A DNA stretch of 64,000 bases, from assembly GCA_000721275.1 (NCBI GenBank), contig JOFO01000023.1, positions 1 through 64,000 of the forward strand, read 5' to 3'. Of the stretch, positions 38,438 to 52,928 are shown one piece after another. Within the stretch, counting starts at the first letter, position 1. Each line of letters starts with the position of its first letter. The notes beneath the pieces are model-generated. The model saw only the letters and a list, made by a program, of their open reading frames with translations, made no database searches and was not told the DNA's origin. The translations under genes were made by a program, and so were the position numbers. Source of the stretch: Microtetraspora glauca. Its GTDB lineage: Bacteria; Actinomycetota; Actinomycetes; Streptomycetales; Streptomycetaceae.

Positions 38438-39697
38438 CTACGCGACGTGGAAGACGATGGCGTCCGCCAGGGTCTCGCAGCGGCGCACGGCGTCCTCGCG
38501 GGTGGGGGCGGTCGCGAAGACGTAGCCCCGGTCGGAGGAGAGCAGCGAGTCCATCGCCGACACCTCGTCGCCGGGGTGCTTGCCGATCACCGCTCCGGCG
38601 TCCGCGTCCGCGAAGTCCTTGAGGTACGGGATCATGTGCGGCGCGCGTTCGCCGGCCGGGACCCGGCGGACCGGGACGGGCAGGTCGTCGGCGCCGGTGA
38701 TCGCGGTGATCCGGCCCGGGGCAGCGTCCAGGAAGCGGATGGCCGCGCCCTGCCGGGGCTCCGGGGCCGTGCCGGGCAGCCGGTCGATGCCGAGCGGGAC
38801 GGTGAGGAAGAGCCGCGCCGGGTCCCAGCCGGTGGCCCGGTGCACCATCTCGGGGATGCCGGCGCCCGACAGGCGGTTGTGGGTCTCCAGGAGGCGCGGG
38901 CCCGCCGGGGTGAGGACGAACTCGCTGTGCGAGGGGCCGTCGGTGAGGCCGACGGCGTCCAGCACGCCGGCGGTGAGCGCGTGCAGCTCCGCCAGGACCG
39001 GGCGGGCCGCGTCGCTGGGGACGCTGCACTCCCACTCGACGAAGTGCTCGTTCACCCGGTACTCGCTGACGCCCAGCACGACGTGGCGGCCCTCGTGGGA
39101 GAACGCCTCGACGCTGACGACCGGGCCGTCCAGGTACTCCTCGGCGAGCACGCCGCCGTACCCGAACTCCTCGATCTCCCGGAAGGCGCGGGCGGCGTCC
39201 ACCGGGTCCGCGACCACGTTGATGTGCAGGCTGCCGGCGCCCTGGCCGGGCTTCAGCACGATCCGGTCGCCGACCTCCGCCAGGAACGCGGCGGCCTCGT
39301 CGGCGGTGTGGACGCGGCGGTGCCGGACGGGGCTGAGGCCGGCCCGGTCCAGGGCCTGCCGGGTGAGGGCCTTGTCCTGGATGGTCCGGGACACCTCGGG
39401 CGGGGTGCCGGGCAGGCCCAGCTTCTCGTTGACCTCGCCGACCGGCACGGCGGACAGCTCGGTGGTGGTGAGGATCCGGTCGAACGGCGCGGCCTCGTGC
39501 AGCGGGCGCAGCAGTTCCAGCAGCGCGCCGGTGTCGGTGATGTCGCAGGTGAGGATGGAGACGACGTGCGGTTCGGCCTCGGCGCGGTCGAACTGGCCCT
39601 CGGTGTGGACGAGGGTGACGTCGATGCCGAGGTCGCGGGCTCCGTGGACGGGGGCGGGACGGCCTCCGACGACGGCGATGCGGGGCCGTGTGGTCAT
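38438..39697 (-). CDS. ATP-grasp ligase (last gene of the LysW operon)
   Basis: The protein has 419 residues; its ATG overlaps the previous stop as ATGA. N-terminal Rossmann-like part RIAVVGGRPAPVHGARDLGIDVTLVH, then the ATP-grasp core: DKALTRQALDRAGLSPVRHRRV, DRIVLKPGQGAGSLHINVV, YGGVLAEEYLDGPVVSVEAFSHEG, PRLLETHNRLSGAGIPEM. A C-terminal lid domain follows (RRVPAGERAPHMIPYLKDF). It joins a carboxylate to an amine through an acyl phosphate. The layout matches L-amino-acid ligase/carnosine-synthase-like enzymes of non-NRPS peptide assembly. Likely couples the carrier-made amino acid with another amino acid; substrates are unknown. Confidence 0.85.
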   Translation of the reverse strand: MTTRPRIAVVGGRPAPVHGARDLGIDVTLVHTEGQFDRAEAEPHVVSILTCDITDTGALLELLRPLHEAAPFDRILTTTELSAVPVGEVNEKLGLPGTPPEVSRTIQDKALTRQALDRAGLSPVRHRRVHTADEAAAFLAEVGDRIVLKPGQGAGSLHINVVADPVDAARAFREIEEFGYGGVLAEEYLDGPVVSVEAFSHEGRHVVLGVSEYRVNEHFVEWECSVPSDAARPVLAELHALTAGVLDAVGLTDGPSHSEFVLTPAGPRLLETHNRLSGAGIPEMVHRATGWDPARLFLTVPLGIDRLPGTAPEPRQGAAIRFLDAAPGRITAITGADDLPVPVRRVPAGERAPHMIPYLKDFADADAGAVIGKHPGDEVSAMDSLLSSDRGYVFATAPTREDAVRRCETLADAIVFHVA

Positions 39698-40014
39698 CGC
39701 GGTGCTCTTTCCGTGGCAGGGGTCAGGGTGCTCAGGGGGGTGCTCGGGTGGACCTCGCGTTCGACGCGCGGCAGGATCTCGGGGACGTAGATCTCCTGGA
39801 TGGCGGCGCCCTCGCCGTGCGCCTCCCAGTGGGCGCGGCTCGCCCAGCGCTCGACGAGGACGAAGCGGAGGGGGTCCGCGTCGGAGCGGTACGCCTCCCA
39901 GGCGACGCAGCCGTCCTCGGCGAGGCACAGCGGGCGCATCCGGCGCAGCGCGTCGGCGACGGGTCCGGCGTCGGCCGGGTCGGGGACGCGGACGATGACG
40001 ATCAGGTCGAACAT
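39694..40014 (-). CDS. Antibiotic biosynthesis monooxygenase (ABM) domain protein
   Basis: The product has 106 residues. The dimeric alpha-beta barrel pattern MFDLIVIVRVPDPADAGPVADALRRM, CVAWEAYRSDADPLRFVLVERWASRAHWEAHGE is typical of the ABM/YgiN group. Some members oxygenate polycyclic substrates without cofactor, others are regulators or unknown. Its start overlaps the SDR stop by one base and its own stop overlaps the ATP-grasp start, so it is translated as part of the operon. Role in the pathway unproven. Confidence 0.85.
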   Translation of the reverse strand: MFDLIVIVRVPDPADAGPVADALRRMRPLCLAEDGCVAWEAYRSDADPLRFVLVERWASRAHWEAHGEGAAIQEIYVPEILPRVEREVHPSTPLSTLTPATERAPR

Positions 40015-40982
40015 CAGGCGGCTCCCCCGGCGGGCTGCGCGGCGGCGGCGATCCGGACGATCTCCGGGAGCCAGTCGCGGATCGCGGCGAGGTCCGCGCC
40101 GAGGGCGAGGGCCCGGGCGGGGTCGACGCCGAAGTCGGCGGGGCAGGAGTACGGGGAGAGCGCGGGGTCGCCGGCCGGGTCGTCCTTTTCGACGACGGCG
40201 GTCGCCTTCCCGGTGGCGCGCTCCACGGCCGCGCACACGTCGTACACGTCGGCCGTGTCGGGCGAGGCGACGTTGAAGACGCCTCCGTCGGGGGCGAGTT
40301 CGCCGGTGGCGGCGCGGGCGAGGAACGCGGCGGCGTCCGGGGCGTGCACCAGGGACGTGCGGCCCGGGCGGGCGTGGGCGGTGACGGGTTCGCCGGTGCG
40401 GGCGCGGTCGAGGTGGAAGTCCAGCCGGCCGGTGAAGTCGCCGGTGGCGGCGAGGACATGGGCGACGCGGGCGATCGTGACGGGCACGCGGGCGTGCCGC
40501 ACCAGGGCCGCCTCGGCCTGCCGCTTGCCCTCGCCGTAGTTGCGGCCGACGAAGTCGAGGTCGTGCCAGGGCAGTTCGGTGTCGTACGCGTACTCCTCCG
40601 GCCGGAGCTCGTCCTCGCGGGCGAAGGCGCTCATGGGCGGCGCCGGGATCCGGTGCCGGAAGGTGTCGGCGTTGTACACCTCCATGCTGCTGGTGAGCAC
40701 GAACCGGCCGGCGCGGGCGCCGAAGGCCGTCGCGGCCTCCAGGGCGGCGGCCGGGGTGTAGCACGCCTGGTGGACCACGGCGTCGAACCGTTCGCCGGCG
40801 ACGGCGGCGGCCAGCTCGCCCGGCCGGGTGACGTCGGCGGTCAGCCGGCGGACGGCCGTGCCGAACGGGTCGGGGGTGCGGCCCCGGGTGACGAGCGTGA
40901 CCCGGTGGCCCTCGTCGAGCAGCCGGCGCACCAGGAGCTTCCCGAAGAAGCGGGTTCCTCCGATGACGCAGATCTCTGCCAT
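40014..40982 (-). CDS. NAD-dependent epimerase/reductase (extended SDR)
   Basis: A protein of 322 residues. The nucleotide loop GGTRFFGKLLVRRLLDEGHRV, the TLVTRGRTPDP segment and NYGEGKRQAEAAL with the catalytic Tyr-x-x-x-Lys pair are present. FNVASPDTADVYDVC forms the C-terminal substrate domain. The group resembles isoflavone-reductase-like or UDP-glucose-4-epimerase-like SDRs of secondary metabolism. In this operon it could reduce or epimerise the carrier-made hydroxyketone or the released amino acid. A 44-base gap separates it from the MFS gene, one of only a few gaps in the operon. Confidence 0.85.
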   Translation of the reverse strand: MAEICVIGGTRFFGKLLVRRLLDEGHRVTLVTRGRTPDPFGTAVRRLTADVTRPGELAAAVAGERFDAVVHQACYTPAAALEAATAFGARAGRFVLTSSMEVYNADTFRHRIPAPPMSAFAREDELRPEEYAYDTELPWHDLDFVGRNYGEGKRQAEAALVRHARVPVTIARVAHVLAATGDFTGRLDFHLDRARTGEPVTAHARPGRTSLVHAPDAAAFLARAATGELAPDGGVFNVASPDTADVYDVCAAVERATGKATAVVEKDDPAGDPALSPYSCPADFGVDPARALALGADLAAIRDWLPEIVRIAAAAQPAGGAA

Positions 40983-41026
40983 CTCTCGCTGTCTCTCTTC
41001 CCTGTCTCTCTCTTCCCCGGGAGGGG

Positions 41027-42280
41027 TCAGGCCTTGACCGGTTCGGCGGACGACGGTTCGGCGTCGCCGGCGGCGTCCGCGGGGCGGTCCTCGTCGCGGC
41101 TGGCGAAGCAGATGACGGCGCACAGCGCGGCGACGGCCGCGGCCACGTACCAGTTGGCGCCCGGCAGTCCGGCGGAGACCGAGACGTCGAACATGACGCC
41201 GGCGAGCAGCGCGCCGGCCATGTTCCCGGCGCTGCGGAAGAAGTGCATGGCGCCCATGGCGCGGGCGAGCTGCTGCTCGGGCACCTTGCGGGCGACCCAC
41301 ATGTCGAAGGACGGCACGAAGAGGATCTCGCCGAAGACGACGACGAAGCAGCCGGCGACGACGGCCCACAGCGCGGCCGGGCCGGCGCCGAAGAGGGCGA
41401 AGGCGACGGCCATGGCGGTCAGGCCGATGCCCATGACCACGCCCGGGCGCAGGTGCTTGATCGCCAGCTTGAAGACCGGGTACTGGAGGACGAGCAGGCT
41501 GAGGCCGGTGATCCAGAAGGGCGCGGAGGGCGCCCAGCCGGGCACGTACTTCCCCATGTGCAGCGGGATGCCGACGACGAAGCACAGGGACAGGAACCAG
41601 AACACCGCCGACAGCAGGAAGTAGCGGGTGGCGCCGCCGACCTCGACGGACTTCAGCCCGGCGAGGCTGAACAGCGGGGCCCGCTCCGCGCCGGCGTCCT
41701 TGCGGGGGGCGGCGGTGCCGTCGGCCTGGAAGCCGTCGCGGGGGATGAACAGCGACGCCGACAGGCAGAAGCCGAGGAAGAGCACGAAGACGGCGGTGAA
41801 CACGACCCGCAGGTCCATGCCGAGGAGCAGACCGCCGGCGAGCGCGCCGCCGAACAGGCCGACCTGCGCGGACATCTGGAACGTCGAGAACGCCTTGGCG
41901 CGCTCGTCCTCCGGGTACGACACCAGGATGTTCTTCAGGCCGGGGAAGGCCGTGCCGGAGCCGAAGCCGATGAACAGGGCCAGCAGGCTGTAGACGAGGA
42001 CGCCGCTGGTGAAGCCCATGAGGCCCAGCGAGACCGCCTCCAGGCCGGTGCCGACGAACACCGCGCCGCGGATGCCGAGCCGGTCGGCGAAGCCCTCGTA
42101 GGAGAAGGTCGCGGCCAGCCGCCCGACGTACGTCATGCACATGACGACGCCGGCCCAGAAGCCGCTGTCGCTGTCGCCCAGCGAGGCCACCAGGATGGGG
42201 AACCAGATGAAGTTCCCGATGTGGGCGAGGAAGATCCCCGCGTTGAGCCCGAAGAGGGCGCTTCTGCGCTGGCTGGTCAC
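41027..42280 (-). CDS. MFS transporter of the LysW cluster
   Basis: The protein has 417 residues from a GTG that overlaps the amidohydrolase stop (GTGA). Twelve helices are seen, beginning RSALFGLNAGIFLAHIGNFIWFPILVASLG. The motif A-like loop FSYEGFADRLGIRGAVFVG and a matching one after helix 8 mark the MFS. A charged central loop (IPRDGFQADGTAAPRKDAGAERAPL) parts the halves. It probably exports the small product of the operon and confers self-protection. Confidence 0.88.
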   Translation of the reverse strand: MTSQRRSALFGLNAGIFLAHIGNFIWFPILVASLGDSDSGFWAGVVMCMTYVGRLAATFSYEGFADRLGIRGAVFVGTGLEAVSLGLMGFTSGVLVYSLLALFIGFGSGTAFPGLKNILVSYPEDERAKAFSTFQMSAQVGLFGGALAGGLLLGMDLRVVFTAVFVLFLGFCLSASLFIPRDGFQADGTAAPRKDAGAERAPLFSLAGLKSVEVGGATRYFLLSAVFWFLSLCFVVGIPLHMGKYVPGWAPSAPFWITGLSLLVLQYPVFKLAIKHLRPGVVMGIGLTAMAVAFALFGAGPAALWAVVAGCFVVVFGEILFVPSFDMWVARKVPEQQLARAMGAMHFFRSAGNMAGALLAGVMFDVSVSAGLPGANWYVAAAVAALCAVICFASRDEDRPADAAGDAEPSSAEPVKA

Positions 42281-43605
42281 AGGACTGCCTTTCCGTTCGT
42301 GGGGGCCGAGCGGAGCTCGGAGATCGCGCGGGCGACGGCGGCCCGGTCGACCGGCACACCGCGGACGACGGTGGCCAGGGGCAGCGCCGACAGCGGGCCG
42401 CCGGGGGTGTGGAGGTTGAAGGTGGCGGGGGCGCCGGTCCGCAGCGGCGGCCGCGGGTCGCGGACGCCGCTCAGCGCGTCGAAGTGGCGGCGGCCGGTGA
42501 CGGTGGCCTGCCGGCGCAGCTCCTCGGCGAGCCCGTCGTCGTCGCCGGCGAGCAGGGCGAGCTCGCTGAGGAACGAGTAGCCGTGGTAGGCGCCGAGGTT
42601 GCCGGAGTCGGTGCCGATGAGGAGGTCGCCGCGGCGCAGCGCCGCCAGCGCGTTGCGGCGCATGTCGGCGAGGGCGGCGGTACGGGTCTCCTGGCAGCCG
42701 TACGCGATGCCGAAGGGCTGCTCGACGGTGCGGACGAACTCCAGGTTCGCGGGGTCCTGGGTGTCGAGGAAGCCCTCGCGGCCGTACTCCTCCAGGAACT
42801 CCTCCCGCGTCATGATCATCGACCGGAGGCCGGCGAGCGTGGAGACGAACCGGGCGCCGTCCAGCTCCTTCCAGTCGGCGTCGTCGAGGGTGCGGTCGCG
42901 GACGGTGTGGGCGAAGAGCCGGAAGCCGCAGTCGTACGCGAACCGGGTCTCCTCCAGGGTGTTGCAGTCGACGACGGCCGTGACGCCGCGCTCGGCGGCG
43001 ATCCGGGCGGTGAAGCGCAGCACCCGCTCCGAGAGCCGGGAGAAACGGACCGGGCTGCCGGGCTGCTCGGTGCCGTCGGTGAACATGACCTTGAGGAAGG
43101 TGCCGCCGCGTTCGGCGTTGGACCGCAGCGCGTGCTCCAGGTCGGCCTCGACGCCGAGCATGTGGACCGGCGCGGGGAACTCCACGCCGTGCCCGGTGCG
43201 CCCGGCCGCGTCGGTCATCGCCGTCACCGCGTACCCGCAGTGGACGACCTCGGGGTACGGCCACGGGGACGCCTCCCGGCCGGCCCGCCAGGCGTCGTCC
43301 ACCAGCGGGAAGCCGAACATGTCCACGACATGGGTGACCCCGTGGTAGAGGTACTGGAGGGCGACGATCCGCGGGTCGTCCACCGAGTCGTCCCAGTTGG
43401 CGGGGAGCGAGACGTGGGCGTGGGTCTCGGTGTAGCCGGGCCACAGCTCGGGCTCCGAGCCGGTGCGGCGGCCGGCCGGGACGAAGGCGGTGAAGACGCC
43501 GTCCTCGGCCGTCACGTCGTACAGCGCCTCGTCGTCGAGGAGGGGGACCGCGACCCCCCGGACGGTGAGGGTCCCCGCCTCCTGCCGGATCGGAGCCGCG
43601 CTCAC
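42277..43605 (-). CDS. Amidohydrolase-superfamily protein with altered metal site
   Basis: The protein has 442 residues from a GTG overlapping the next ATP-grasp stop. N-terminal beta-sandwich, then the metal motif WPGYTETHAHVSLPAN (HxH), GGTFLKVMFTDG with the usual carbamylated Lys, FAHTVRDRTLDD and LIGTDSGNLGAY with the catalytic Asp. The strand that normally carries the VHAH ligand reads VVDCNTLEETRFAYDCG, so one His is replaced (Asp/Cys/Asn). The fold is that of imidazolonepropionase/Xaa-Pro dipeptidase-like hydrolases. It may cyclise or cleave an amide of the product. Confidence 0.8.
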   Translation of the reverse strand: MSAAPIRQEAGTLTVRGVAVPLLDDEALYDVTAEDGVFTAFVPAGRRTGSEPELWPGYTETHAHVSLPANWDDSVDDPRIVALQYLYHGVTHVVDMFGFPLVDDAWRAGREASPWPYPEVVHCGYAVTAMTDAAGRTGHGVEFPAPVHMLGVEADLEHALRSNAERGGTFLKVMFTDGTEQPGSPVRFSRLSERVLRFTARIAAERGVTAVVDCNTLEETRFAYDCGFRLFAHTVRDRTLDDADWKELDGARFVSTLAGLRSMIMTREEFLEEYGREGFLDTQDPANLEFVRTVEQPFGIAYGCQETRTAALADMRRNALAALRRGDLLIGTDSGNLGAYHGYSFLSELALLAGDDDGLAEELRRQATVTGRRHFDALSGVRDPRPPLRTGAPATFNLHTPGGPLSALPLATVVRGVPVDRAAVARAISELRSAPTNGKAVL

Positions 43606-44855
43606 CGGGCGACCTCGACCCGCATGCGCAGCTCGATCCGGCCCAGGGCGTCCTCGCAGCGCTCGTTGACCTGGGCGCGGTCCTCGCCGGTGAAGATGAG
43701 GTGGCCGATCCAGTCGAAGTTGCTCTTGGCGAGCCGGTCGACGGCGGTGCCGGGCTTCTTGTACGCCTGCGCGCTGTGGAAGCCGGGCAGGCCGGCGAGG
43801 GCGTCGAAGCCGATGGACTCGACGGTGCCGGCGATCGGGGCGCCGAACCAGTGGCCGCCGGCCGTGGTGCCGCCGGGGAAGGGGAGTTCGGGGCGCTCGC
43901 CGAGGGCCTGCCGGATGACCTCCAGGTAGGCGTCGACGCCGGAGGAGATCTTCATCAGGGTCGGCACGATGCCGCCGATCAGCCGGCCGTTGACCTCGCA
44001 GAGCACCGGGCCGTCGGGGCCGAGCAGGAACTCGGTGTGGATGAAGCCGAAGTCGACGCCCAGCTCGTTCAGGACCTGCGTGGTCATGGCGAACAGCTCG
44101 TCCTGGAGCGGGTGGCCGTCGAAGTAGGTGGCGCCCATCTCGATGAAGTGCGGGAAGCCGCTGAGCGGGCGGTCGGTGAGGCCGAGGTTGACGACCTCGC
44201 CGCCGGCCAGCACGCAGGACTCGACGGAGATCAGCTCGCCCTCGACGAACTCCTCGATGAGGATGTCGGGGATGCGGACGACGCCGCGCCCGTAGTCGGT
44301 GACGCGCTCCAGCTCGGCGAGGTAGTCGCGCAGGTCCTGCTCGTCCCTGAGGTGGAGGACGTGGAGGCTGGCGGTGCCGTCGGACGGCTTGACGACGCAC
44401 GGGAAGCCGATCTCGCGGACGGCGGCCTCGACCTTCGCCGGGTCGTCGACGTGCGCGAAGCGCGGCTGGCGGACGCCGGTGCCGTCGAGGGTGAGGCGGG
44501 TGCGGTGCTTGTGGCGGGCGTTGAGAGCGCCGTCGACGCTCATGCCGGGCAGGCCGAGGGAGCGGGCCACGGTCGCGGTGTGCACGGTGTGGTACTCGCT
44601 GTAGGTGGTGACGCCGTGCACCGGGTTGCCGGCGTGGATCTCCTTGGCGATCCGCTCCAGCTCGTCGATCGAGAACGCCTGGTCGCTCTTCACGACCTGG
44701 CAGCGGGGGTGCGCGAAGGCGTCCTTCGCGAGCGGCGAGGCCGCCAGGTAGAAGTCGGGGTCGGCGGAGACGAGGGTGACGTCGTGGCCCAGCTCCAGGG
44801 CGTTGGCGATGCCCTGGATGCCGTTCGGGTTGCACTCGATCATCAGGACGTGCAT
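43602..44855 (-). CDS. Second ATP-grasp ligase of the LysW operon
   Basis: The protein has 417 residues; its ATG follows AAGGAG. MHVLMIECNPNGIQGIANALELGHDVTLVSADPDFY begins the pre-ATP-grasp domain. The core shows HKHRTRLTLDGTGVRQPRFAH, FPCVVKPSDGTASLHVLHL, ILIEEFVEGELISVESCVL and LCEVNGRLIGGIVPTLMKISSGVDAYL. Like the enzyme at 38438 it belongs to the carboxylate-amine ligase group (BacD/TabS-like). Two such ligases in one operon suggest a di- or tripeptide product. A 41-base gap separates it from the transketolase gene. Confidence 0.85.
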   Translation of the reverse strand: MHVLMIECNPNGIQGIANALELGHDVTLVSADPDFYLAASPLAKDAFAHPRCQVVKSDQAFSIDELERIAKEIHAGNPVHGVTTYSEYHTVHTATVARSLGLPGMSVDGALNARHKHRTRLTLDGTGVRQPRFAHVDDPAKVEAAVREIGFPCVVKPSDGTASLHVLHLRDEQDLRDYLAELERVTDYGRGVVRIPDILIEEFVEGELISVESCVLAGGEVVNLGLTDRPLSGFPHFIEMGATYFDGHPLQDELFAMTTQVLNELGVDFGFIHTEFLLGPDGPVLCEVNGRLIGGIVPTLMKISSGVDAYLEVIRQALGERPELPFPGGTTAGGHWFGAPIAGTVESIGFDALAGLPGFHSAQAYKKPGTAVDRLAKSNFDWIGHLIFTGEDRAQVNERCEDALGRIELRMRVEVAR

Positions 44856-44896
44856 GGCGGGACTCCTTGCGGACGTGGGGTGGTGGGGGCGGCGGG

Positions 44897-45829
44897 TCAG
44901 GGGGTGGCGGCGGCGAGGACGGCGTCGGTGGTGAGGCCGAGGCGGGCCATCACCTCGTGGTGGTCGCCGCCCTCGTAGGGCCAGTCGTGGCCGGCGTTGA
45001 CGCCGACGACCTCGCTGCCGGGCAGCAGCAGCGCCAGCGCCTCGGCGGCGCCGCCCTCGCCGCGGTGCTCCTCGACGACCACGAACCGGCGGTGCAGACC
45101 GGCCAGTTCGGCCGCGGAGCGGGCGAGCCGCGCGTGGTCGACGTGGACCAGGTGGGCGTGGGCCAGCTCGGGGCGCCGCTCGCGGGCGGCGAGCGCGAGG
45201 CGGGTGCCCTCCTCGCCGACGGACACCAGGCAGGGCGTGTCGGCGTCGCCCCGGGCGTCCCACACCACGGGCGGCAGGGCGTCGCCGCCGGGCAGCGAGG
45301 CGTACGCGGCGTTCCGGCCGGTCCGGATGTACGTGGGCGTGCCGGTGCGGGCCGCCTCGCGGACCACCGCCCGGGTCTCGGCCTCGCCGTACGGGGCGGC
45401 GACGGCGACACCGGGGATGCTGCGCAGGACCGCCAGGTCCTCCAGGCAGTGGTGGGTGGTGCCGAACCAGGCGCCGGACACCCCGGCGTACGGGGCGACG
45501 ACGGTGACGCCGGCCTTCAGGTAGCCCAGCGTCAGCTTGAGGCTCTCGGCGGCGCGCAGCGCGGCGAAGGGCGCGAAGGTGGAGACGAACGGGCGGTAGC
45601 CGGCGGCGGCGAGCCCGGTCGCCATGTCGATCATGGCGCCCTCGGCGATGCCGAGGTTGAAGAAGCGGTCCGGGTGGGCGAGCTGGAAGGGGTGCTTCTT
45701 GCCGCCGAGGTCCGCTTCGAGGCAGACGATCCGCGGGTCGCGGGCGGCGAGTTCGGTGAGCTCGGCGCGGTAGGCGTCGCGTCCGCTGAGGACGGCCGCG
45801 GGCGGCGGCGTGAGGGTCGTCGGGGTCAT
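44897..45829 (-). CDS. Transketolase C-terminal subunit (split enzyme)
   Basis: A protein of 310 residues carrying the pyrimidine-binding and C-terminal domains: ADLGGKKHPFQLAHPDRFFNLGIAEGAMIDMATGLAAAGYRPFVSTFAPFAALRA with the Glu that activates thiamine diphosphate (GIAEG), then GVSGAWFGTTHHCLEDLAVLRSIPG and ATRTGTPTYIRTGR-like segments. It works with the N-terminal subunit encoded directly upstream (ATGA overlap). Split transketolases of this kind serve carrier-protein pathways, where they add a two-carbon ketol unit to the glutamate semialdehyde held on LysW. Confidence 0.88.
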   Translation of the reverse strand: MTPTTLTPPPAAVLSGRDAYRAELTELAARDPRIVCLEADLGGKKHPFQLAHPDRFFNLGIAEGAMIDMATGLAAAGYRPFVSTFAPFAALRAAESLKLTLGYLKAGVTVVAPYAGVSGAWFGTTHHCLEDLAVLRSIPGVAVAAPYGEAETRAVVREAARTGTPTYIRTGRNAAYASLPGGDALPPVVWDARGDADTPCLVSVGEEGTRLALAARERRPELAHAHLVHVDHARLARSAAELAGLHRRFVVVEEHRGEGGAAEALALLLPGSEVVGVNAGHDWPYEGGDHHEVMARLGLTTDAVLAAATP

Positions 45830-46653
45830 CGGATGGCTCGCTTCCACTGCGCGGCGCGGGCCGCGTCGATCGTCACGTAGTGCGAGGCCGCCTTGCCCTC
45901 GACGGCGCGGACGCCCTTGCCCTTGACGGTGTCGGCGAGGACGGCGAGCGGCCGGACGGCGTCCGCGCGGTCGCCGGCGAACACCTCGGTGAGGGCGGCC
46001 AGGTCGTGGCCGTCGACGGTGACGGTGTCGAAGCCGAAGGCGTCGAAGCGCTCGGCCAGCCGGGGCAGCGGGGAGATGTCGGCGACGAGCCCGTCGTTCT
46101 GCCCGCCGTTGCGGTCCACGACGAGGACGAAGGTGCCGAGCCGCTGGGCGGCGGCGACCTGGACGGTCTCCCAGACCAGGCCCTCCTGGAGCTCGCCGTC
46201 GCCGGCGACCGCGATCCCGAGGCCGCCCTGTCCGCCGAGCCGGCGGGCCATGGCCCAGCCGGCCGCGTACGGCACGCCGTGGCCGAGGCTGCCGGTGGGG
46301 AACCGGACGCCGGGGACCTTCGGCCCGGGGTGCCCTGTGTACGGGTGCCCGGCGAGGCCGTACAGCGGCGCCGGGTTCTCCGGCAGGACGCCGCTGACGT
46401 GCAGCGCGGCGTACAGTCCGGCGGCGGCGTGGCCCTTGCTGAGCACGACCTCGGTGCCGTCGCCGCGCCCGGCGCGGTGCAGGGCCGCGATCAGGATGTC
46501 CAGGACGGACAGGCTGCCGCCGAGGTGGCAGCCGCGGGGGCTCGCGGCCATGTCGACGACGAGCCGCCGGGCCTCCCGGGCCCGCTCGGCGAGCAGGGCG
46601 ACGGTCGCGTCCTCGGTGCCGGTACGCGCCGGGGCGTCGTGGACGGCGGTCAC
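45826..46653 (-). CDS. Transketolase N-terminal subunit (split enzyme)
   Basis: A protein of 275 residues; the GTG overlaps the preceding stop. The thiamine-diphosphate/Mg motif is VAGDGELQEGLVWETVQVAAAQRLGTFVLVVDRNGGQND, preceded by SPRGCHLGGSLSVLDILIAALHRAG and VLSKGHAAAGLYAAL with the His residues that contact the cofactor. LADTVKGKGVRAVEGKAASHYVTID ends the domain. It forms an alpha2beta2 enzyme with the next gene. Central-metabolism transketolases are single chains of about 690 residues, so this pair is specialised. Confidence 0.88.
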   Translation of the reverse strand: MTAVHDAPARTGTEDATVALLAERAREARRLVVDMAASPRGCHLGGSLSVLDILIAALHRAGRGDGTEVVLSKGHAAAGLYAALHVSGVLPENPAPLYGLAGHPYTGHPGPKVPGVRFPTGSLGHGVPYAAGWAMARRLGGQGGLGIAVAGDGELQEGLVWETVQVAAAQRLGTFVLVVDRNGGQNDGLVADISPLPRLAERFDAFGFDTVTVDGHDLAALTEVFAGDRADAVRPLAVLADTVKGKGVRAVEGKAASHYVTIDAARAAQWKRAIR

Positions 46654-48509
46654 CGGGTGCTCCCCTCGCCGAGGGCGAACCAGCGGTTCACGGCGTCCGC
46701 GAGGACCGAGCGGGCGGTGCGGTACTCCATGCTGCCGATCCGCTCCTCGTCGGTGTGGTCGAGGGCCGAGTCGCCCGGGCCGTACGCCACCATGGGGACG
46801 CCCTTCCAGGTCGTGGCCAGGGTGTTCATGTCGGAGGTGCCCTTCTTCACCACGAACCGGGGCCGGATGCCGGCCTGCGCGAAGGCGCGGGTGAAGACCT
46901 TGACGAGGCCGGTCGCCCGGCCGCCCGCGTGGCCGGGGGTGGCCCGCAGGACCTCGGTCTCGACGCCGTCCCGGCCGGCGGCGGCGCCGAGCGCGGCGGC
47001 GCGCAGCACCTCCAGGTCGGCGCCGGGGGGCACCCGGAAGTTGAGGACGCCGACGGCCCGGTGCCGGGCGCGGCCGGTCTCGCAGCGGATGTCGATGACG
47101 GCGCTGAGCGCCTCGGGCGCCTCCTTGAGGACCGCCGCGCGGACGGCGTCGAGGACGTCGGTCAGCAGGTCGGGGGCGGTGACGGCGTCCATGCCGGCCG
47201 AGTGGCCGCTGGCGACCGACGCGGTGACGCGCAGCTTGAACAGGCCGAAGTAGCCGAGGGTCAGGGTCTCCGCGCCGCTGGGCTCGCCGATGACGACGGC
47301 GTCGGCGGGGTAATGGTCGCGGGCGTGGAAGGCGCCCTTGGAGGAGGACACCTCCTCCTCGACGGCGCCGACGACGCGCAGCTGCCCGTCCTCGGGGATG
47401 TCGGCGTGGGCGAGGACCTCCAGGAAGTTCGCGAGGCTGCCCTTGGCGTCGACGCTGCCGCGGCCCCACAGCTCCTCGCCGCGCCACTCGGCGGGCCGCA
47501 GGTGCGGCACCGTGTCGAGGTGGCCGAGGAGCAGCATCCGGCGGGGGCCGTCGCCGCGGGTGGCGACGAGGTTGCCGGCGGCGTCGACCTCGGCGTCGAT
47601 GCCGCGCTCGCGGCACCAGTCGGCGAGGTAGACGGCGAGTTCGGCCTCGTCGCCGGAGACGGACGGCACGGAGACGACCTTGGTGAGCAGCCCGAGGTCG
47701 GCGCCGGGTTCGCGGGTGCGCCAGAAGCGGGTCCACTTCTCCGGTTCGGCCATGGTGTGGGGGCCGGTGATGGCGACGTCGGCGCTGCCGGCGAGGGCCA
47801 TCTCGGCGGCCCGGACCTTCTGCCGCATCCGGCCGCCGGCGTACCGGGCGCCGTCGCCGGGGTAGGCGTTGGGCAGGGTGGAGGCGGGGTCGGCGGGGTC
47901 GGTGAGGAGTCCGGCGGTGCCGGTGACGAGCCGCAGGTGGTCGGCGTCGAGGGCGACGCTGAGGGCGGCGGCGAGGACGTCGGCGTCGACGTTGAGCGGC
48001 GCGCCGCCGGCCTCGTCGTGCACCGGCGGGGAGACGCAGACGACGTCGTAGGCGTCGAGGAGCGCGGTGAGCCGGGCGGTGTCGACGTCCGCGGGGACGC
48101 CGGCCCGGTGGTCGCGGACGACGACCGGGCGGCCGTCGTCGTTGAGGGCCTTCAGCGGCCGGTTGGCGCGGCCGGAGACGAGCCGGTTGCGGGCGGCGAC
48201 GGAGGTGAAGACGCGCAGGCCGTGGGCGGCCAGGTCCTGCTCGACGGCGGGCAGGGTGACCTGCTCGTACGCGTCGACCAGGTGCCGCATCTCCTCCGGC
48301 GGGCAGTAGCGGACCTCGTCGCCGTTGGCGAGCCGGAGCCGGGGCATCGGGCGGCCGGCGGAGCGGTAGTGCCGCTCGATGCCGGTGGCGCCGCCGGCCA
48401 CCAGGAGCACCCGGGCGCCGCGGGCGGCGAGGGCGGCGATCTCCTGGTGGACGGTGCCGAGGTCGAGGGTGGCGCTGCCCGCCTTGATCACGTACAGGGG
48501 CCTGGTCAC
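46650..48509 (-). CDS. LysZ-LysK fusion: carrier-bound substrate kinase plus carrier-releasing hydrolase
   Basis: A single chain of 619 residues from a GTG overlapping the reductase stop. Residues 1 to about 250 are an amino-acid-kinase domain (LYVIKAGSATLDLG, LLVAGGATGIERHYRSAG, RNRLVSGRANRPLKAL, GGRMRQKVRAAEMALAG) like LysZ, which phosphorylates the carrier-bound side chain. From about 258 on it is an M20 metallopeptidase like LysK (LLTKVVSVPSVSGDE, LLLGHLDTVPHLR, GRGSVDAKGSLANFL, VGAVEEEVSSSKGA, IGEPSGAETLTL, KKGTSDMNTL), which cuts the finished amino acid from LysW. Start and end steps are thus joined in one protein; I see no stop or frameshift between them. Confidence 0.88.
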   Translation of the reverse strand: MTRPLYVIKAGSATLDLGTVHQEIAALAARGARVLLVAGGATGIERHYRSAGRPMPRLRLANGDEVRYCPPEEMRHLVDAYEQVTLPAVEQDLAAHGLRVFTSVAARNRLVSGRANRPLKALNDDGRPVVVRDHRAGVPADVDTARLTALLDAYDVVCVSPPVHDEAGGAPLNVDADVLAAALSVALDADHLRLVTGTAGLLTDPADPASTLPNAYPGDGARYAGGRMRQKVRAAEMALAGSADVAITGPHTMAEPEKWTRFWRTREPGADLGLLTKVVSVPSVSGDEAELAVYLADWCRERGIDAEVDAAGNLVATRGDGPRRMLLLGHLDTVPHLRPAEWRGEELWGRGSVDAKGSLANFLEVLAHADIPEDGQLRVVGAVEEEVSSSKGAFHARDHYPADAVVIGEPSGAETLTLGYFGLFKLRVTASVASGHSAGMDAVTAPDLLTDVLDAVRAAVLKEAPEALSAVIDIRCETGRARHRAVGVLNFRVPPGADLEVLRAAALGAAAGRDGVETEVLRATPGHAGGRATGLVKVFTRAFAQAGIRPRFVVKKGTSDMNTLATTWKGVPMVAYGPGDSALDHTDEERIGSMEYRTARSVLADAVNRWFALGEGSTR

Positions 48510-49555
48510 GGCGACACCGCCGTGGTGGGCAGGCCCGCGGTCTCGTCGAAGCCGCAGATCAGGTTCATGGCCTGGATGGCCTGGCCGGCGGCGCCCTTGA
48601 CGAGGTTGTCGAGCGCGGCGACGGCGACGCACTGCCCGTCGCGGACGGCGACGGCGACCTCGGCGACGTTGGAGCCGACGACGGCCTTCAGCATCGGGAA
48701 GTCCTGCGGGGCCTTCGGCGCGGTCCGCACCCGGACGAACGGCTTGCCGACGTACGCCTTGGCGTAGGCCCGCTTGACGTCGAGCGGCGAGACGCCGGGC
48801 AGCAGGTCGGTGTAGGCGGTGACCATGATGCCGCGGGCCACGTCGAGGCTGTGGGTGGAGAAGCGCAGGTCCATGGCGGCGCCGGTGAACTCGGCGATGG
48901 CCTGGCTGATCTCCGGCGCGTGCCGGTGGCCGTACAGCTTGTGGACCCGGAAGTTGCCGCTGCGCTCGGCCGGCGGTTCGCCGCTGCCGCGTCCGCCGCC
49001 GGTGGAGCCGGTCTTGGCGTCGACGACGACCCGGTGGTCGACGAGGGAGGCGGCGAAGAGCGGGTAGAGGGCGTAGACGGTGGTGACGGCCATGCAGCCG
49101 GGCAGGCTGATGAACCGGCTCTCCGGGACGGCGGTGCTCAGCTCCGGCACGTAGTAGGCGAAGTCCTCGAACGGCGGGTTCTTCGCGGTCTTCGGGTAGT
49201 ACGACTCCACCTCGGCCCGGTCGCGGAGCCGGAAGTCGCCGCCGAGGTTGAGGACCCGCTTGGCGCGCTCGGCGACGAGCGGCAGCCGCTCGGGCAGCGC
49301 CCCGGTGGGGAGGCAGCCGAAGGCGATGTCCACGTCCTCCAGTTCCTCCAGCGGACGGAACCTGAGACCGGCGGCGGCCGGGTGGTTGCGCAGCCAGGGG
49401 TGGACGGAGCCGAGGGTGGCGCCGGCGTTGCGCTCCGCGGACAGGAAGGCGAGTTCGACGCCGGGATGCTCCAGGAGCAGCCGGATGACCTCGCCGCCGG
49501 TGTAGCCGCTGGCGCCGATGACGGCGACGCGGACCTTCTGGTCGGTGTCAGCCAA
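48506..49555 (-). CDS. LysY/ArgC-type carrier-bound acyl-phosphate reductase
   Basis: The protein has 349 residues. The start is a TTG inside the end of the aminotransferase gene (8-base overlap; AAGGCGG upstream); no ATG or GTG lies near. VRVAVIGASGYTGGEVIRLLLEHPGVEL is the NADP motif, ISLPGCMAVTTVYALYPLF holds the catalytic Cys, and GSTGGGRGSGEPPAERSGNFRVHKLYGHRHAPEISQ holds the active-site His. It turns the LysW-bound gamma/delta-glutamyl phosphate into the semialdehyde, the acceptor for the transketolase. Confidence 0.88.
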   Translation of the reverse strand: MADTDQKVRVAVIGASGYTGGEVIRLLLEHPGVELAFLSAERNAGATLGSVHPWLRNHPAAAGLRFRPLEELEDVDIAFGCLPTGALPERLPLVAERAKRVLNLGGDFRLRDRAEVESYYPKTAKNPPFEDFAYYVPELSTAVPESRFISLPGCMAVTTVYALYPLFAASLVDHRVVVDAKTGSTGGGRGSGEPPAERSGNFRVHKLYGHRHAPEISQAIAEFTGAAMDLRFSTHSLDVARGIMVTAYTDLLPGVSPLDVKRAYAKAYVGKPFVRVRTAPKAPQDFPMLKAVVGSNVAEVAVAVRDGQCVAVAALDNLVKGAAGQAIQAMNLICGFDETAGLPTTAVSP

Positions 49556-50867
49556 GGCGGGCCGCCTTCTCGTACGGGCGGCGGTGGTCGCCGTTCTCCA
49601 CGAGCTTGCGGATGGCGTCGGGTCGCCGGGCGACCTTGCGGAAGGCGTCGGCGTACCGCAGGGCGCGCTCGTACTCGACGGGGGAGCGCAGCTCGCGGCA
49701 GAGCACCAGGGTGCTGTCGAGCATGCCGAGCGTCACCGGGAAGTCCTCGGGGCGGTGGTCGCGGACGGCGCCGGGGTTGAGGGTGAAGGGGTGGCCGTTG
49801 CCGAAGCCGTCGCGGTGGACGAAGGGCAGGTGGCAGGGGATGGGGGTGTTCTGCCACTCGCGGGCGGGCACGCCCTCGGCGACGAGGAGTTCGTGCACGG
49901 CCTCCTTGACGGCGTGCACGGGCAGGTCGCCGAGGCCGACGGCCTCCGGGTGGAGGGTGACTCGGTACATGTTGTACGCGTGGGTGTGGCCTTCGGGGAC
50001 GTGCGGCGGGGTGAACAGGCCGGTGCCGTCGAGGGCTTCGCCGAGGAGGGCGGCGTTGCGGGCGCGGATCGCGTCGTAGTACGGGAGCCGCTTGAGCTGG
50101 CTGCTGCCGAAGGCGGCGGCGACCCAGGACATGCCGTAGTCGATGCCGTGCCGCTCCAGGTAGGCGGCGGCGCGGTCGTACGCCTCCTCGGTGGCGAAGA
50201 ACGCGATGCCGCCCTCGCCGCCGAGCGGGAAGTTCTTGTCGGCCATGAGGCTCTGGCCGGCGGCGTCGCCGAAGGAGCCGGCGACCTGGTCGCCGATCTT
50301 CGCCGAGTGGGCGTGCGAGGCGTCCTCGACGAGGGCGATGCCGTGCCGGTCGGCGAGCGCCCGCAGGGCGGGCACGTCGGCCGGGAGGCCGTGGACGTGC
50401 ACCGGCATGAGGGCGCGGGTGCGGTCGGTGATCGCCGCGGCGGCGGCCTCCGGGTCCATGCAGTACGTGACCGGGTCGATGTCCACGAAGACGGGGACGG
50501 CGTGCGCGGCGACGACCGCCTGGGCGGTGGCGATGAAGGTGAACGCCGGGACGATGACCTCGTCGCCGGGCTGGACGCCGGCGCCGACGAGCGCCATGTG
50601 CAGGCTGGAGGTGCCGCTGGCGGTCGGCAGCGCGTGGGCGGCGCCGACGTACGCGCGGTACGCCTCGGCGAAGTCGGCGACGACCTTCTCCGGGGCCTGG
50701 CGCTGGGCCAGCATCAGATTGAAGACGTCTTCCTTGGTGATGACCGGGAAGAGGGTGCGGCGCAGGGCCTTGGGGATGAGGGCGTCGCCGCCGAGCGCGG
50801 CGAGCTCGGTGTCGAGCTCGGCCTCGGACGGGAGGGGCAGCGGCGCTGCCGGGAAGTCAGTGATCAC
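49548..50867 (-). CDS. DegT/DnrJ/EryC1/StrS aminotransferase
   Basis: The protein has 439 residues; the GTG overlaps the preceding stop (GTGA). FAEAYRAYVGAAHALPTASGTSSLHMALVGAGVQPGDEVIVPAFTFIATAQAV is the StrS-type start. LVEDASHAHSAKIGDQVAG carries the PLP-binding Asp, and SLMADKNFPLGGEGGIAFF carries the Schiff-base Lys (near residue 211). It probably aminates the C6 ketone left by the transketolase, as known for carrier-protein pathways; sugar amination is less likely here. The C-terminus is longer than in typical sugar aminotransferases. Confidence 0.88.
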   Translation of the reverse strand: MITDFPAAPLPLPSEAELDTELAALGGDALIPKALRRTLFPVITKEDVFNLMLAQRQAPEKVVADFAEAYRAYVGAAHALPTASGTSSLHMALVGAGVQPGDEVIVPAFTFIATAQAVVAAHAVPVFVDIDPVTYCMDPEAAAAAITDRTRALMPVHVHGLPADVPALRALADRHGIALVEDASHAHSAKIGDQVAGSFGDAAGQSLMADKNFPLGGEGGIAFFATEEAYDRAAAYLERHGIDYGMSWVAAAFGSSQLKRLPYYDAIRARNAALLGEALDGTGLFTPPHVPEGHTHAYNMYRVTLHPEAVGLGDLPVHAVKEAVHELLVAEGVPAREWQNTPIPCHLPFVHRDGFGNGHPFTLNPGAVRDHRPEDFPVTLGMLDSTLVLCRELRSPVEYERALRYADAFRKVARRPDAIRKLVENGDHRRPYEKAARLG

Positions 50868-51502
50868 GAGTGTGCTCCGAGAGAGGCGGCCGGCCGGACC
50901 GCGTGGGTGAGGGCCATCCGCGCGCAGGCGGCCACGAGCGGGCTGAGCCGGTAGTTGAACTGGACGCCGGGCACCAGCTCCGCGTCGGCCTCCTCCTGGG
51001 TCCACATGGTCCGCAGGTCGTAGGCGCCGAAGATCTTCAGGCGCTCGGCGCGCGCCCAGACGTCGGGGGAGTCGGTGAGGACGGCGGCGGCCGGGCCGAA
51101 GCCGAGGCCGGTGAGGTCCACCACCAGGACGGGGGCGGTGGCCGCGGCGGCGAGTTCGGGCAGCCGGTCGGCGTTCTCCGCCGTGAGCTCCACGTAGTCG
51201 TACGCGACGGGCTCGCCGGCCCCGGCGGACTCGGCGGTCAGGCCGAGCCAGGCGAGGAACGCGAGGGTGGGGCGGTCGGTGTGGGGCACGGTCACGGTGT
51301 CGCCGTGGCCGAGGCCCTGGCCGGCGAGGGCGCCGTGCAGGGCGCCGGTGCGGCTGTTGAAGAGGGCCGCCCTGGCGCGGCCGGTGCGCTTGGTGAGCAG
51401 CCGCTCCAGGCCGGGCAGCTCCCGGTCGCTCTTCTCGATGCTCATGACGACGCCCGAGGTGAGGACGCGGGTGAGCACGGTCGCGGTGTCGAACAGTTCC
51501 AT
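50864..51502 (-). CDS. Short DegT-like protein lacking the PLP lysine
   Basis: A protein of 212 residues (MELFDTATVLTRVLTSGVVMS) with a GGAGAAG site. LPGLERLLTKRTGRARAALFNSRTGALHGALAGQGLGHGDTVTVPHTDRPTLAFL follows the same order as the start of DegT enzymes (E-x-x-F/L...G...A.FNSGTxALHxAL...G.GPGDxVxVP). It then ends where the lysine region would be (KIFGAYDLRTMWTQEEADAELVPGVQFNYRLSPLVAACARMAL), and no GGEGG/Lys motif is seen. It is probably a catalytically dead partner of the adjacent aminotransferase. Its start is 38 bases after the LysX stop. Confidence 0.65.
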   Translation of the reverse strand: MELFDTATVLTRVLTSGVVMSIEKSDRELPGLERLLTKRTGRARAALFNSRTGALHGALAGQGLGHGDTVTVPHTDRPTLAFLAWLGLTAESAGAGEPVAYDYVELTAENADRLPELAAAATAPVLVVDLTGLGFGPAAAVLTDSPDVWARAERLKIFGAYDLRTMWTQEEADAELVPGVQFNYRLSPLVAACARMALTHAVRPAASLGAHS

Positions 51503-51540
51503 GGTCTTCTCCGGGTGTCTCCGTCGCGGGGTGCGCGCGC

Positions 51541-52425
51541 TCAGGCGGCGGTCGGCGCGACGGCGGTGCGCCCGAGCAACTCCGTGACGTAGGTGGCGAG
51601 ATGACCGGCCACGTCGACGCCGTGCTGGGCGGAGGAGCGGGCGAATTCGGGGTTGGCGTTGACTTCGAGCACCAGCAGTTCCCCGGTGGTGCGGTCCTCG
51701 ACGAGGTCGACCCCGTAGAAGCCGTCGCCGAGGGCGTCGACGACCTGGGCGCAGAGCTTCTCGATCTCCGGTGTGATCTCGGTGCGGCGGACCTCCGCGC
51801 CGAGGTGGGTGTTGGTGCGGAAATCGGGCGAGACCCGCTGGATCGCGACGACCGGGGTGCGGCCGACGACGACCACGCGCAGGTCGTGGCCGGGCTTGTC
51901 GATGTACTGCTGGACGACGACCGGGAACAGCTTCCCGGCGGCGTCGGTGGACTCGCGCCCGCCGACCCAGGCGTCGACGCACTCGGGGTTGACCATCCGG
52001 GTGACACCGCGGCCCCAGGAGCCGCTGACGGGCTTGACGACGGTCGGCAGCCCCATCCGCGCGACGGTCTCGCGGACCTGGTCGTAGCTGAAGGCGTGCA
52101 GGGTGTGCGGGTGCGGGATGCCGTGCCGGGCGAAGGTGAGGGCCTGGAGGCCCTTGTCGTTGCAGGTCTCGATGGTGGCGGCGCGGTTGAGGGTGGCGAC
52201 GCCGCGGTGTTCGAGCCGGCGGGAGACGCTGACGGCGTCCTGGTGGGAGAGGTTCCTGATGAGGGCGAGGCCGGGCGGGCGCGTGTCGCCCGCCACCACC
52301 CCCGCGAGGTCTTCCCGGAGCAGCGGAGCCGCCTTCAGTCCCTTGGCCCGCAGGGCCTGGAGAAGGAGCTTCTCGTCCGGCCTCAGCATGGTCGCCGAGA
52401 CGAGGACCTCTGCGTGTTGGTTCAC
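51541..52425 (-). CDS. LysX-type ATP-grasp ligase for LysW
   Basis: The protein has 294 residues from a GTG that overlaps the lysW stop. ATP-grasp motifs: CNDKGLQALTFARHGIPHPHTLHAF, LPTVVKPVSGSWGRGVTRMVN, VVVQQYIDKPGHDLRVVVVGRTPVVAIQRVS, YGVDLVEDRTTGELLVLEVNANPEFARSSAQHGVDVAGHLATYV. In LysX/ArgX this enzyme joins the alpha-amino group of glutamate or alpha-aminoadipate to the C-terminal Glu side chain of LysW. I cannot decide between the two amino acids from the sequence. Confidence 0.9.
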   Translation of the reverse strand: MNQHAEVLVSATMLRPDEKLLLQALRAKGLKAAPLLREDLAGVVAGDTRPPGLALIRNLSHQDAVSVSRRLEHRGVATLNRAATIETCNDKGLQALTFARHGIPHPHTLHAFSYDQVRETVARMGLPTVVKPVSGSWGRGVTRMVNPECVDAWVGGRESTDAAGKLFPVVVQQYIDKPGHDLRVVVVGRTPVVAIQRVSPDFRTNTHLGAEVRRTEITPEIEKLCAQVVDALGDGFYGVDLVEDRTTGELLVLEVNANPEFARSSAQHGVDVAGHLATYVTELLGRTAVAPTAA

Positions 52426-52610
52426 TCGCCCCAGTCCTCCTCGACCTCGGGCGCGAGGTCCAGGCGGACCAGGTCACCGGTCTTCTCCAGGACCTCGTGC
52501 TCCTGCCCGCAGGCAGTGCATTCGGTGATCTCGCCCTTTTCCCAGTCGGCCTGCACCTCGAATTCCGAGTCGCATACCAGGCACGTGGGCGCGGCAATGG
52601 CGGTGGTCAT
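52422..52610 (-). CDS. Amino-group carrier protein LysW
   Basis: The product has 62 residues from an ATG eight bases after AAGGAG. Zinc ribbon CLVC (10-13) and CTACGQEH (31-38), with an acidic middle and the fixed C-terminal EDWGE. The last Glu (62) holds the substrate through its gamma-carboxyl group. LysW shields the alpha-amino group during chain elongation. It is the first gene of the operon and the best marker that the whole cluster is a carrier-protein pathway. Lysine or arginine primary pathways in actinomycetes do not use LysW, so a specialised product is expected. Confidence 0.93.
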   Translation of the reverse strand: MTTAIAAPTCLVCDSEFEVQADWEKGEITECTACGQEHEVLEKTGDLVRLDLAPEVEEDWGE

Positions 52611-52745: not shown

Positions 52746-52928
52746 TCAGCCCCAGCCGTGGTCGTCCTGGGCGCCGGCCAGGACGGTCACGGTGTCCGCG
52801 GCCGTCGTGGCGGCGAGGACACCGCGCTCCGTGTCGCCCTGAGCGGCGAAGACGCCGGTCGCCGCCACGACGGCGAAAGCGGCGACGGCGAAAGCCTTCA
52901 TGGCGTTCAGGAAAACACTGCTCTTCAT
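52746..52928 (-). CDS. Second secreted peptide, C-terminus DDHGWG
   Basis: The product has 60 residues from an ATG preceded by GGGGGAA. A Sec signal MKSSVFLNAMKAFAVAAFAV to about residue 29 (GVFAAQGD) is followed by a short mature part, DTERGVLAATTAADTVTVLA, ending AQDDHGWG. Only the end resembles peptide 1 (DPGWH, EPDWG): an acidic residue, Gly/His, then Trp. It is divergent from the paralogous regulator and faces lysW, 135 bases ahead, on the same strand. It could therefore be the first gene of the carrier-protein operon. Function (signal or precursor) is inferred. Confidence 0.7.
   Translation of the reverse strand: MKSSVFLNAMKAFAVAAFAVVAATGVFAAQGDTERGVLAATTAADTVTVLAGAQDDHGWG

Follow-up and report, generated by a model that had tools for sequence, protein, structure and literature searches.

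Organization of the operon

The window, a 64,000-nucleotide stretch of Microtetraspora glauca DNA (assembly GCA_000721275.1, contig JOFO01000023.1, here C23), contains an operon that encodes a LysW-type amino-group carrier protein (AmCP) together with enzymes of the corresponding carrier-bound chemistry. Fourteen genes, all on the minus strand, run from the LysW start at 52610 to the stop of a second ATP-grasp ligase gene at 38438, and gene calling returned exactly the span and gene number given in the initial annotation. The gene content was also as first described, with two genes now named that had lacked a designation, encoding a small DegT-like protein (smDegT) and a major facilitator superfamily (MFS) exporter. 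The genes are tightly packed: at 10 of the 13 junctions neighbouring genes share 1-8 bp, and the other three are gaps of 38, 41 and 44 bp. Scanning for promoters and terminators revealed no clear excess over chance, with 0 promoters predicted and 3 terminators where 2.5 were expected. Families were assigned with Pfam and NCBIfam profiles; the genes are listed from LysW onwards.

52422-52610, minus: LysW-type amino-group carrier protein, 62 aa, zinc ribbon (Pfam Zn_ribbon_LysW, 44.3 bits)
51541-52425, minus: LysX-type ATP-grasp ligase, predicted to load the amino acid onto LysW (LysX_arch and rimK_fam profiles)
50864-51502, minus: smDegT, small DegT-like protein, 212 aa, probable non-catalytic aminotransferase partner (match to 8y96, 166 bits)
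49548-50867, minus: DegT aminotransferase, catalytic subunit (8y96 chain A, 534 bits)
48506-49555, minus: LysY/ArgC-type acyl-phosphate reductase (argC, 294 bits, above cut-off)
46650-48509, minus: fusion of a LysZ-type kinase (residues ~6-249) and a LysK-type M20 hydrolase (~273-609) (AA_kinase, Peptidase_M20)
45826-46653, minus: transketolase N-terminal half, thiamine diphosphate binding (Transketolase_N)
44897-45829, minus: transketolase C-terminal half, pyrimidine binding (Transket_pyr)
43602-44855, minus: ATP-grasp L-amino acid ligase 1, which opens the tail (passes the cut-offs of ATP-grasp_4 and LAL_C2)
42277-43605, minus: amidohydrolase-fold protein (AmdH), tail gene (predicted fold)
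41027-42280, minus: MFS exporter, tail gene (MFS_1, 106 bits)
40014-40982, minus: NAD-dependent epimerase/dehydratase-type short-chain dehydrogenase/reductase (SDR), optional tail gene (Epimerase, 54 bits)
39694-40014, minus: ABM-domain small protein, optional tail gene (ABM, 44 bits)
38438-39697, minus: ATP-grasp L-amino acid ligase 2, optional in the tail (passes the cut-offs of ATPgrasp_N, ATP-grasp_4 and LAL_C2)

The 14 genes had been read as a single pathway. They do form one packed unit, but the unit is made of two modules: an eight-gene cassette, from LysW to the C-terminal half of the transketolase, which is widespread, and an exchangeable tail. Judged by its sequences, the operon is a real, conserved secondary-metabolite unit that is apparently intact.

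The carrier-protein cassette

Homologues of LysX, LysY, LysZ and LysK are all present together, as are the transketolase pair and a DegT aminotransferase, and the profile families support the previously proposed LysW pathway with split transketolase and DegT. The LysX/Y/Z/K set is common to the clusters that make 2,6-diamino-5,7-dihydroxyheptanoate (DADH), including those for ficellomycin and vazabitide. LysW has two CxxC pairs and the C-terminal sequence EDWGE; its four cysteines, E58, W60, G61 and E62 are invariant in 32 of 32 aligned rows, and D59 in 31. Seven residues of the M20 domain, the GDG motif and two asparagines of the transketolase N half, and E63 of the C half are each invariant in 34 of 34 rows. 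LysY and the LysK half pass their own NCBIfam cut-offs, the deacylase half with 283.6 bits to dapE-lys-deAc (TIGR01902). LysX scores 219 bits with LysX_arch (cut-off 275.6) and 199.7 bits with rimK_fam (cut-off 143.4).

The motif [RK]TNT-LG of LysX is kept in all 33 cassette rows, two of which repeat one contig, as TNTHLG in 32 and as TNTTLG in locus L018 (L and G numbers denote our loci and genomes). Among solved relatives, 3vpb, which we take to be the glutamate-using ArgX, reads WRAN at the corresponding place, and 3vpd and 5k2m read WITN. The window LysX keeps the arginine of 3vpb where the other two have isoleucine, and on this account the substrate assignment leans to glutamate.

The aminotransferase pair

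The DegT protein matches chain A of 8y96 with 534 bits over residues 1-439, and its K211 and D182 are invariant in 33 of 33 rows. Homologues of both 8y96 chains are encoded side by side in the window, the smDegT match reaching 166 bits. The recognizable DegT part of smDegT stops before the positions of D182 and K211, and a second ArnB stretch past the lysine (198-258) scores 4.7 bits, which is not significant. We regard smDegT as a probable non-catalytic partner of the aminotransferase. The arrangement resembles the hetero-oligomeric aminotransferase of Serratia sp. ATCC 39006 (PDB 8y96, 8y98; also 8y97), in which a full DegT and a small partner form one solved complex; in the window the two are encoded by adjacent genes. 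By homology the pair belongs to a two-protein type that is already known.

The initial annotation placed the gene content with known carrier-protein pathways to DADH. The kind of pathway, with LysW, transketolase and DegT, agrees; the set is not simply that of azinomycin or ficellomycin, as the two-protein DegT matches 8y96 with 534 bits and Fic25 of Streptomyces ficellus with 246. This separate lineage, with the window DegT also only 37% identical to its counterpart in an azinomycin-like cluster that the genome carries on contig C40, would fit a cassette product other than DADH, such as a stereoisomer, a compound made with another ketol donor or one on an aminoadipate skeleton, the remainder of the pathway being unchanged. 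The LysX motif, which combines features of different solved relatives, points the same way. However, the encoded reaction types match those described for DADH, and LysX retains the WR-N feature of 3vpb, so that we consider such a product rather unlikely and keep to a DADH-type amino acid.

The tail genes

Pfam domains confirmed the two ATP-grasp ligases, the SDR and the ABM protein reported earlier, and the amidohydrolase was recovered by its predicted fold. The nearest solved relatives of the ligases are the L-amino acid ligases BL00235 and BacD, which have the same domain content including LAL_C2; similarity is low (E 6e-21 and 2e-16), ligase 1 having BL00235 as its nearest solved sequence at 6e-21. 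E287, N289 and R291 of ligase 1 are invariant in 28 of 28 rows, one of them a distant ATP-grasp protein of Staphylococcus epidermidis. The corresponding E271, N274 and R275 of ligase 2 are invariant in five aligned orthologues (window, L004, L005, L018 and L023), and an ATP-grasp protein from a locus with another tail (L046) deviates from them with an alanine. The tail ATP-grasps fall into two separate clades divided by long branches, the deep order of which we left unused. Both the LAL_C2 domain and the resemblance to solved ligases support the earlier suggestion that the ATP-grasp ligases are the likely peptide-forming step.

The amidohydrolase gave zero Pfam matches even at E 5, and a sequence search at E 0.001 brought up no solved relative; structure prediction gives a TIM barrel, and the family assignment rests on this predicted fold only. 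Its nearest folds include carboxypeptidases, prolidases and other amide hydrolases. It differs from the prolidase, Arg/Lys carboxypeptidase, ochratoxinase and bottromycin amidohydrolase folds in having, besides no Pfam match, an invariant aspartate, Asp213, at the expected place of the beta-5 histidine (24 of 24 and 27 of 27 aligned rows), a position assigned from the motif and from the model's strand 209-213. The label prolidase was dropped for the same reason, the beta-5 histidine being a metal ligand. The family is closed, with 74 proteins, of which the full-length ones are at least 55% identical in the list of matches and 54% in the 24-row alignment. In the SDR, Y149 and K153 are invariant in 14 of 14 rows.

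An aspartate at this place in a protein that has no solved sequence relative at the above threshold would also suit a different outcome, in which the amidohydrolase or SDR closes a ring on a single modified amino acid and the ATP-grasps activate a carboxylate in some other way; oxidation of the 5-hydroxyl could let N2 close a pyrroline, or a lactam could form. A cassette of Streptomyces camelliae, found with an SDR and a permease and with no further ATP-grasp in the stretch read, is consistent with this. Yet the two ATP-grasps, each with a LAL C-terminal domain, are similar to dipeptide ligases, and amide hydrolases such as carboxypeptidases and prolidases are among the folds nearest to the amidohydrolase. 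A cyclized single amino acid is clearly unlikely on this evidence, and a small peptide remains our preferred product.

Distribution of cassette and tail

Searching genome contigs with the amidohydrolase identified 22 loci, 17 from Streptomyces and one each from Glycomyces, Actinorhabdospora, Kitasatospora, Sphaerimonospora and Chitinimonas. Presence was counted by tblastn, since the ABM genes of L003 and L023, along with several genes in L022, had escaped gene calling alone. The smDegT, DegT, LysY, LysZ-LysK, both transketolase halves, ligase 1, amidohydrolase and MFS genes were found in all 22, and LysW and LysX in 20, the two misses (L008, L013) lying at contig ends. The smDegT of L013 is itself cut by the contig end; DegT in L003 and LysX in L015 matched piecewise (best-piece coverage 31% and 57%), and both loci were excluded from the concatenated tree described below. 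Cassette gene order and single-strand arrangement are kept in all 22 loci, two of them cut by contig ends, and ligase 1, amidohydrolase and MFS follow in every one. Beyond the MFS gene the loci vary, with SDR and ABM present in the same 12 of 22 and ligase 2 in five (L003, L004, L005, L018 and L023). Streptomyces sp. RKAG290 (L024), for instance, has an 11-gene cluster that ends at the MFS gene.

A large modular polyketide synthase (PKS) gene lies directly 3' of SDR-ABM in L010 (L010:13947-21311) and also in L006, L011 and L014, its domains having been checked in L010 only. The PKS was rejected as a general part of the pathway, as the closely related locus L044 has none there.

Within the family Streptomycetaceae, 14 of 394 genomes, the window's own among them, encode smDegT. 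Nine of the 13 others have the window-type tail, three of which (G135, G144 and G316) correspond by contig and position to L010, L012 and L014. The remaining four (L046, L047, L050 and L051) have the eight cassette genes in the same order and on one strand, with a different ATP-grasp gene in front and a solute-binding-type protein behind, identified in L046 as SBP_bac_5 (PF00496). Three of these four also carry a protein of 444-446 aa, which has no Pfam family in L046. Among 396 genomes of the phylum, smDegT was found only in the window's own genome, and among 369 genomes of the class of Chitinimonas only in Chitinimonas.

This patchiness bears on a role in primary lysine or arginine synthesis, which the joint presence of LysW, LysX, LysY and LysZ-LysK might suggest. 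With smDegT in just 14 of 394 genomes of the family, the set is too scattered for a primary pathway, and this explanation was rejected as extremely improbable. To our knowledge, a split transketolase and a DegT pair are also not part of LysW-dependent lysine or arginine pathways. A secondary-metabolite pathway that makes a DADH-type amino acid is the reading we retain.

Plasmids of S. epidermidis NCCP 16828, Pseudalkalibacillus hwajinpoensis and S. camelliae carry the eight genes in the same order, again on a single strand. On the two Bacillota plasmids an ATP-grasp gene, 23-25% identical to ligase 1 in its product, follows immediately behind the cassette; on the S. camelliae plasmid a permease and an SDR follow it, and LysX is the only ATP-grasp in the stretch read. 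The amidohydrolase gave no match in the plasmid search. The eight-gene cassette is widespread, in actinomycetes, Chitinimonas and on plasmids of Bacillota. Among the best 120 of 262 smDegT relatives are sequences named Paenibacillus, other Bacillaceae, Prodigiosinella confusarubida, Chromobacterium subtsugae and Staphylococcus aureus. P. confusarubida is presumably the Serratia strain of 8y96; none of the 74 amidohydrolase relatives, many of them entries without a name, is named Serratia or Prodigiosinella.

The S. epidermidis plasmid (NZ_CP043848.1) comes from a blood isolate and carries cassette and ATP-grasp at L054:12372-21092; no other plasmid record had near-identical DNA. One of the smDegT relatives in the same best 120 of 262, with 129 member sequences, is named S. 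aureus.

Exchange of tails between cassettes

A tree was computed from seven concatenated cassette proteins (29 rows; quick search, LG+G4). The other-tail loci L046 and L047 group with the window-type loci L020 (Kitasatospora), L045 and L048, five rows with support 100. Forcing the 22 actinomycete window-type rows, without Chitinimonas, together costs 223 log-likelihood units and is rejected by the approximately unbiased (AU) test (p 4.5e-6). Tail classes were set from gene content before any tree was made, and the AU test was chosen after the DegT tree.

Identities to the window give a second view. Chitinimonas has cassette proteins 46-66% identical to those of the window, with ligase 1 at 73%, amidohydrolase at 55% and MFS at 53%; for the actinomycete L021 the values are 69-82%, 72%, 61% and 53%. 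Because of the AU result and this pattern in Chitinimonas, we conclude from the sequences compared that tails were exchanged between cassettes and that actinomycete cassettes with the window-type tail do not form a clade. The class-II label was no more clustered on the cassette tree than after shuffling (2 changes against 2.5; 221 of 500 shuffles as low).

Relation to sulfation and NRPS clusters

The operon is similar to the vazabitide A, s56-p1, azinomycin and ficellomycin clusters in its carrier-protein route to DADH. It differs from them in its second, small DegT and its ATP-grasp ligases, and in that no sulfotransferase or nonribosomal peptide synthetase (NRPS) was found nearby. The azinomycin/ficellomycin branch has a sulfotransferase for aziridine closure, and the window cluster has none on its contig. 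Two studies describe how a carrier protein yields DADH and, for azinomycin, the transketolase and aminotransferase steps leading to it (PMC9303977, PMC9570651), and a third describes another AmCP cluster that gives a DADH-derived dipeptide (PMC13266690).

The initial annotation saw no sulfotransferase or NRPS in the window, and domain searches agree that none lies nearby. No NRPS condensation domain was found on C23, all 21 places in the genome being on other contigs; a genome-wide search for Sulfotransfer_3 at E 0.001 was negative, and the single Sulfotransfer_5 match lies on C40. That contig (L033, L034) holds a separate LysW cluster with an APS kinase, Sulfotransfer_5, an AlkZ-like DNA glycosylase, an NRPS condensation domain and, by eye, a PKS-like protein; from these genes the cluster is azinomycin-like.

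Sulfation supplied in trans by C40, where APS kinase, sulfotransferase and AlkZ-like protein stand beside a LysW set, could in principle lead the window pathway to an azabicyclic (aziridine) compound. Against this, none of the three C40 proteins has a match in the 22 window relatives (13-21 kb read), and C40 has its own LysW, LysX and DegT. The C40 sulfotransferase and AlkZ-like protein match C40 only, and the APS kinase C40 and L039 only. With sulfation genes not found in the relatives read, the aziridine route was rejected, and we regard it as very improbable. We return to a peptide of a DADH-type amino acid as the expected product.

L039 is a second LysW cluster of Streptomyces actinomycinicus, with an APS-kinase-like protein, a LysZ-LysK fusion and transketolase halves, and with no match to the window DegT.

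Peptide and regulator genes near the operon

Two genes outside the 14 adjoin the operon upstream.

52746-52928, minus: small exported-peptide-like gene upstream of the operon, product ending DDHGWG
53066-54127, plus: divergent GerE/LuxR-type regulator, associated with the operon (GerE, 34 bits)

The peptide gene precedes LysW and lies opposite the regulator. Peptides with a tryptophan near the C-terminus (DPGWP, DPGWA, QDQGWA, DDRWG and others) precede LysW in 12 of 31 loci, compared with 8 of 3100 randomized copies and 0 of 31 reverse strands; the peptide of L009 starts outside its locus (L025). None was found in L010, L011, L014 and L044, which have a SARP-like regulator as neighbour, in L018 and L045 despite a LuxR-like neighbour, or in 12 further loci. 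Relatives of the regulator adjoin the cassette in several loci.

The window contains a second pair, an exported-peptide-like open reading frame of 68 aa (5774-5980, minus) with three DPGWH copies and a final EPDWG, divergent from a gene at 6180-7094 (plus) whose product is a 39% relative of the regulator at 53066. Elsewhere, four of 24 further regulator relatives have a divergent peptide and 20 do not (randomized copies, 12 of 1200), and two of the four peptides contain a repeated motif (DSVWS, GVIGWD). By sequence, peptide and divergent regulator look like a peptide-signal/regulator pair; a search of the open-licence literature on such pairs found nothing relevant.

Proposed pathway and product

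The cassette probably builds an unusual amino acid on the carrier protein, and the tail probably converts it to a small exported peptide. In our proposal, LysX would join the amino group of glutamate to the C-terminal Glu residue of LysW, after which the bound glutamate would be phosphorylated by LysZ and reduced to the semialdehyde by LysY. The transketolase pair would extend the semialdehyde by a two-carbon ketol unit, the DegT pair would aminate the extended chain, and the M20 domain would release a DADH-type amino acid. We infer this order of reactions, and DADH as the intermediate, by analogy with known families. Ligase 1 would then couple the DADH-type amino acid to another amino acid, the amidohydrolase-fold protein may act on either the peptide or the amino acid, and the product would leave the cell through the MFS protein; in the window subtype the SDR, the ABM protein and ligase 2 may modify or extend it further. 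Peptide formation, the roles of amidohydrolase, SDR and ABM, and the product itself are what we infer beyond the genes. Overall we assign a probability of about 60% to an NRPS-free, two-module pathway in which a DADH-type amino acid is made on LysW, released, ligated by ATP-grasp enzymes and exported as a small peptide.

Several observations weigh against this proposal. LysX and the LysZ kinase half score below the NCBIfam equivalog cut-offs, although their families are right, and the amidohydrolase is unlike its nearest folds at what is probably a metal-ligand position. Another tail accompanies the cassette in 4 of the 13 other smDegT Streptomycetaceae genomes, and because of these genomes and the S. 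camelliae plasmid with no ATP-grasp besides LysX in the stretch read, ligation is not obligatory. DADH could also be wrong in stereochemistry or skeleton.

Both the carrier chemistry and the DegT pair belong to known kinds, and we did not find a description of the variant in which they are combined with an exchangeable ligase/amidohydrolase/MFS tail; the literature search for a cluster with this cassette and tail, limited to open-licence literature, found none. More tentatively, the operon may represent a natural-product class not yet described, that of small peptides assembled independently of NRPS and ribosome, in which an ATP-grasp-made di- or tripeptide delivers a carrier-built diamino-dihydroxy acid as a mimic of lysine or diaminopimelate, and in which cassette and tail move separately, as exchangeable modules, among Actinomycetota, Bacillota (a staphylococcal plasmid being one case) and Pseudomonadota. 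The sharply bounded amidohydrolase-fold family could be used as a probe for further clusters of the same type. If the proposal is correct, the tails would indicate where different products may be sought, with clusters that end at the MFS gene the simplest to express, and the LysW carrier route would operate free of NRPS assembly and aziridine chemistry, as a portable supply unit for ligase-based peptide pathways in several phyla.

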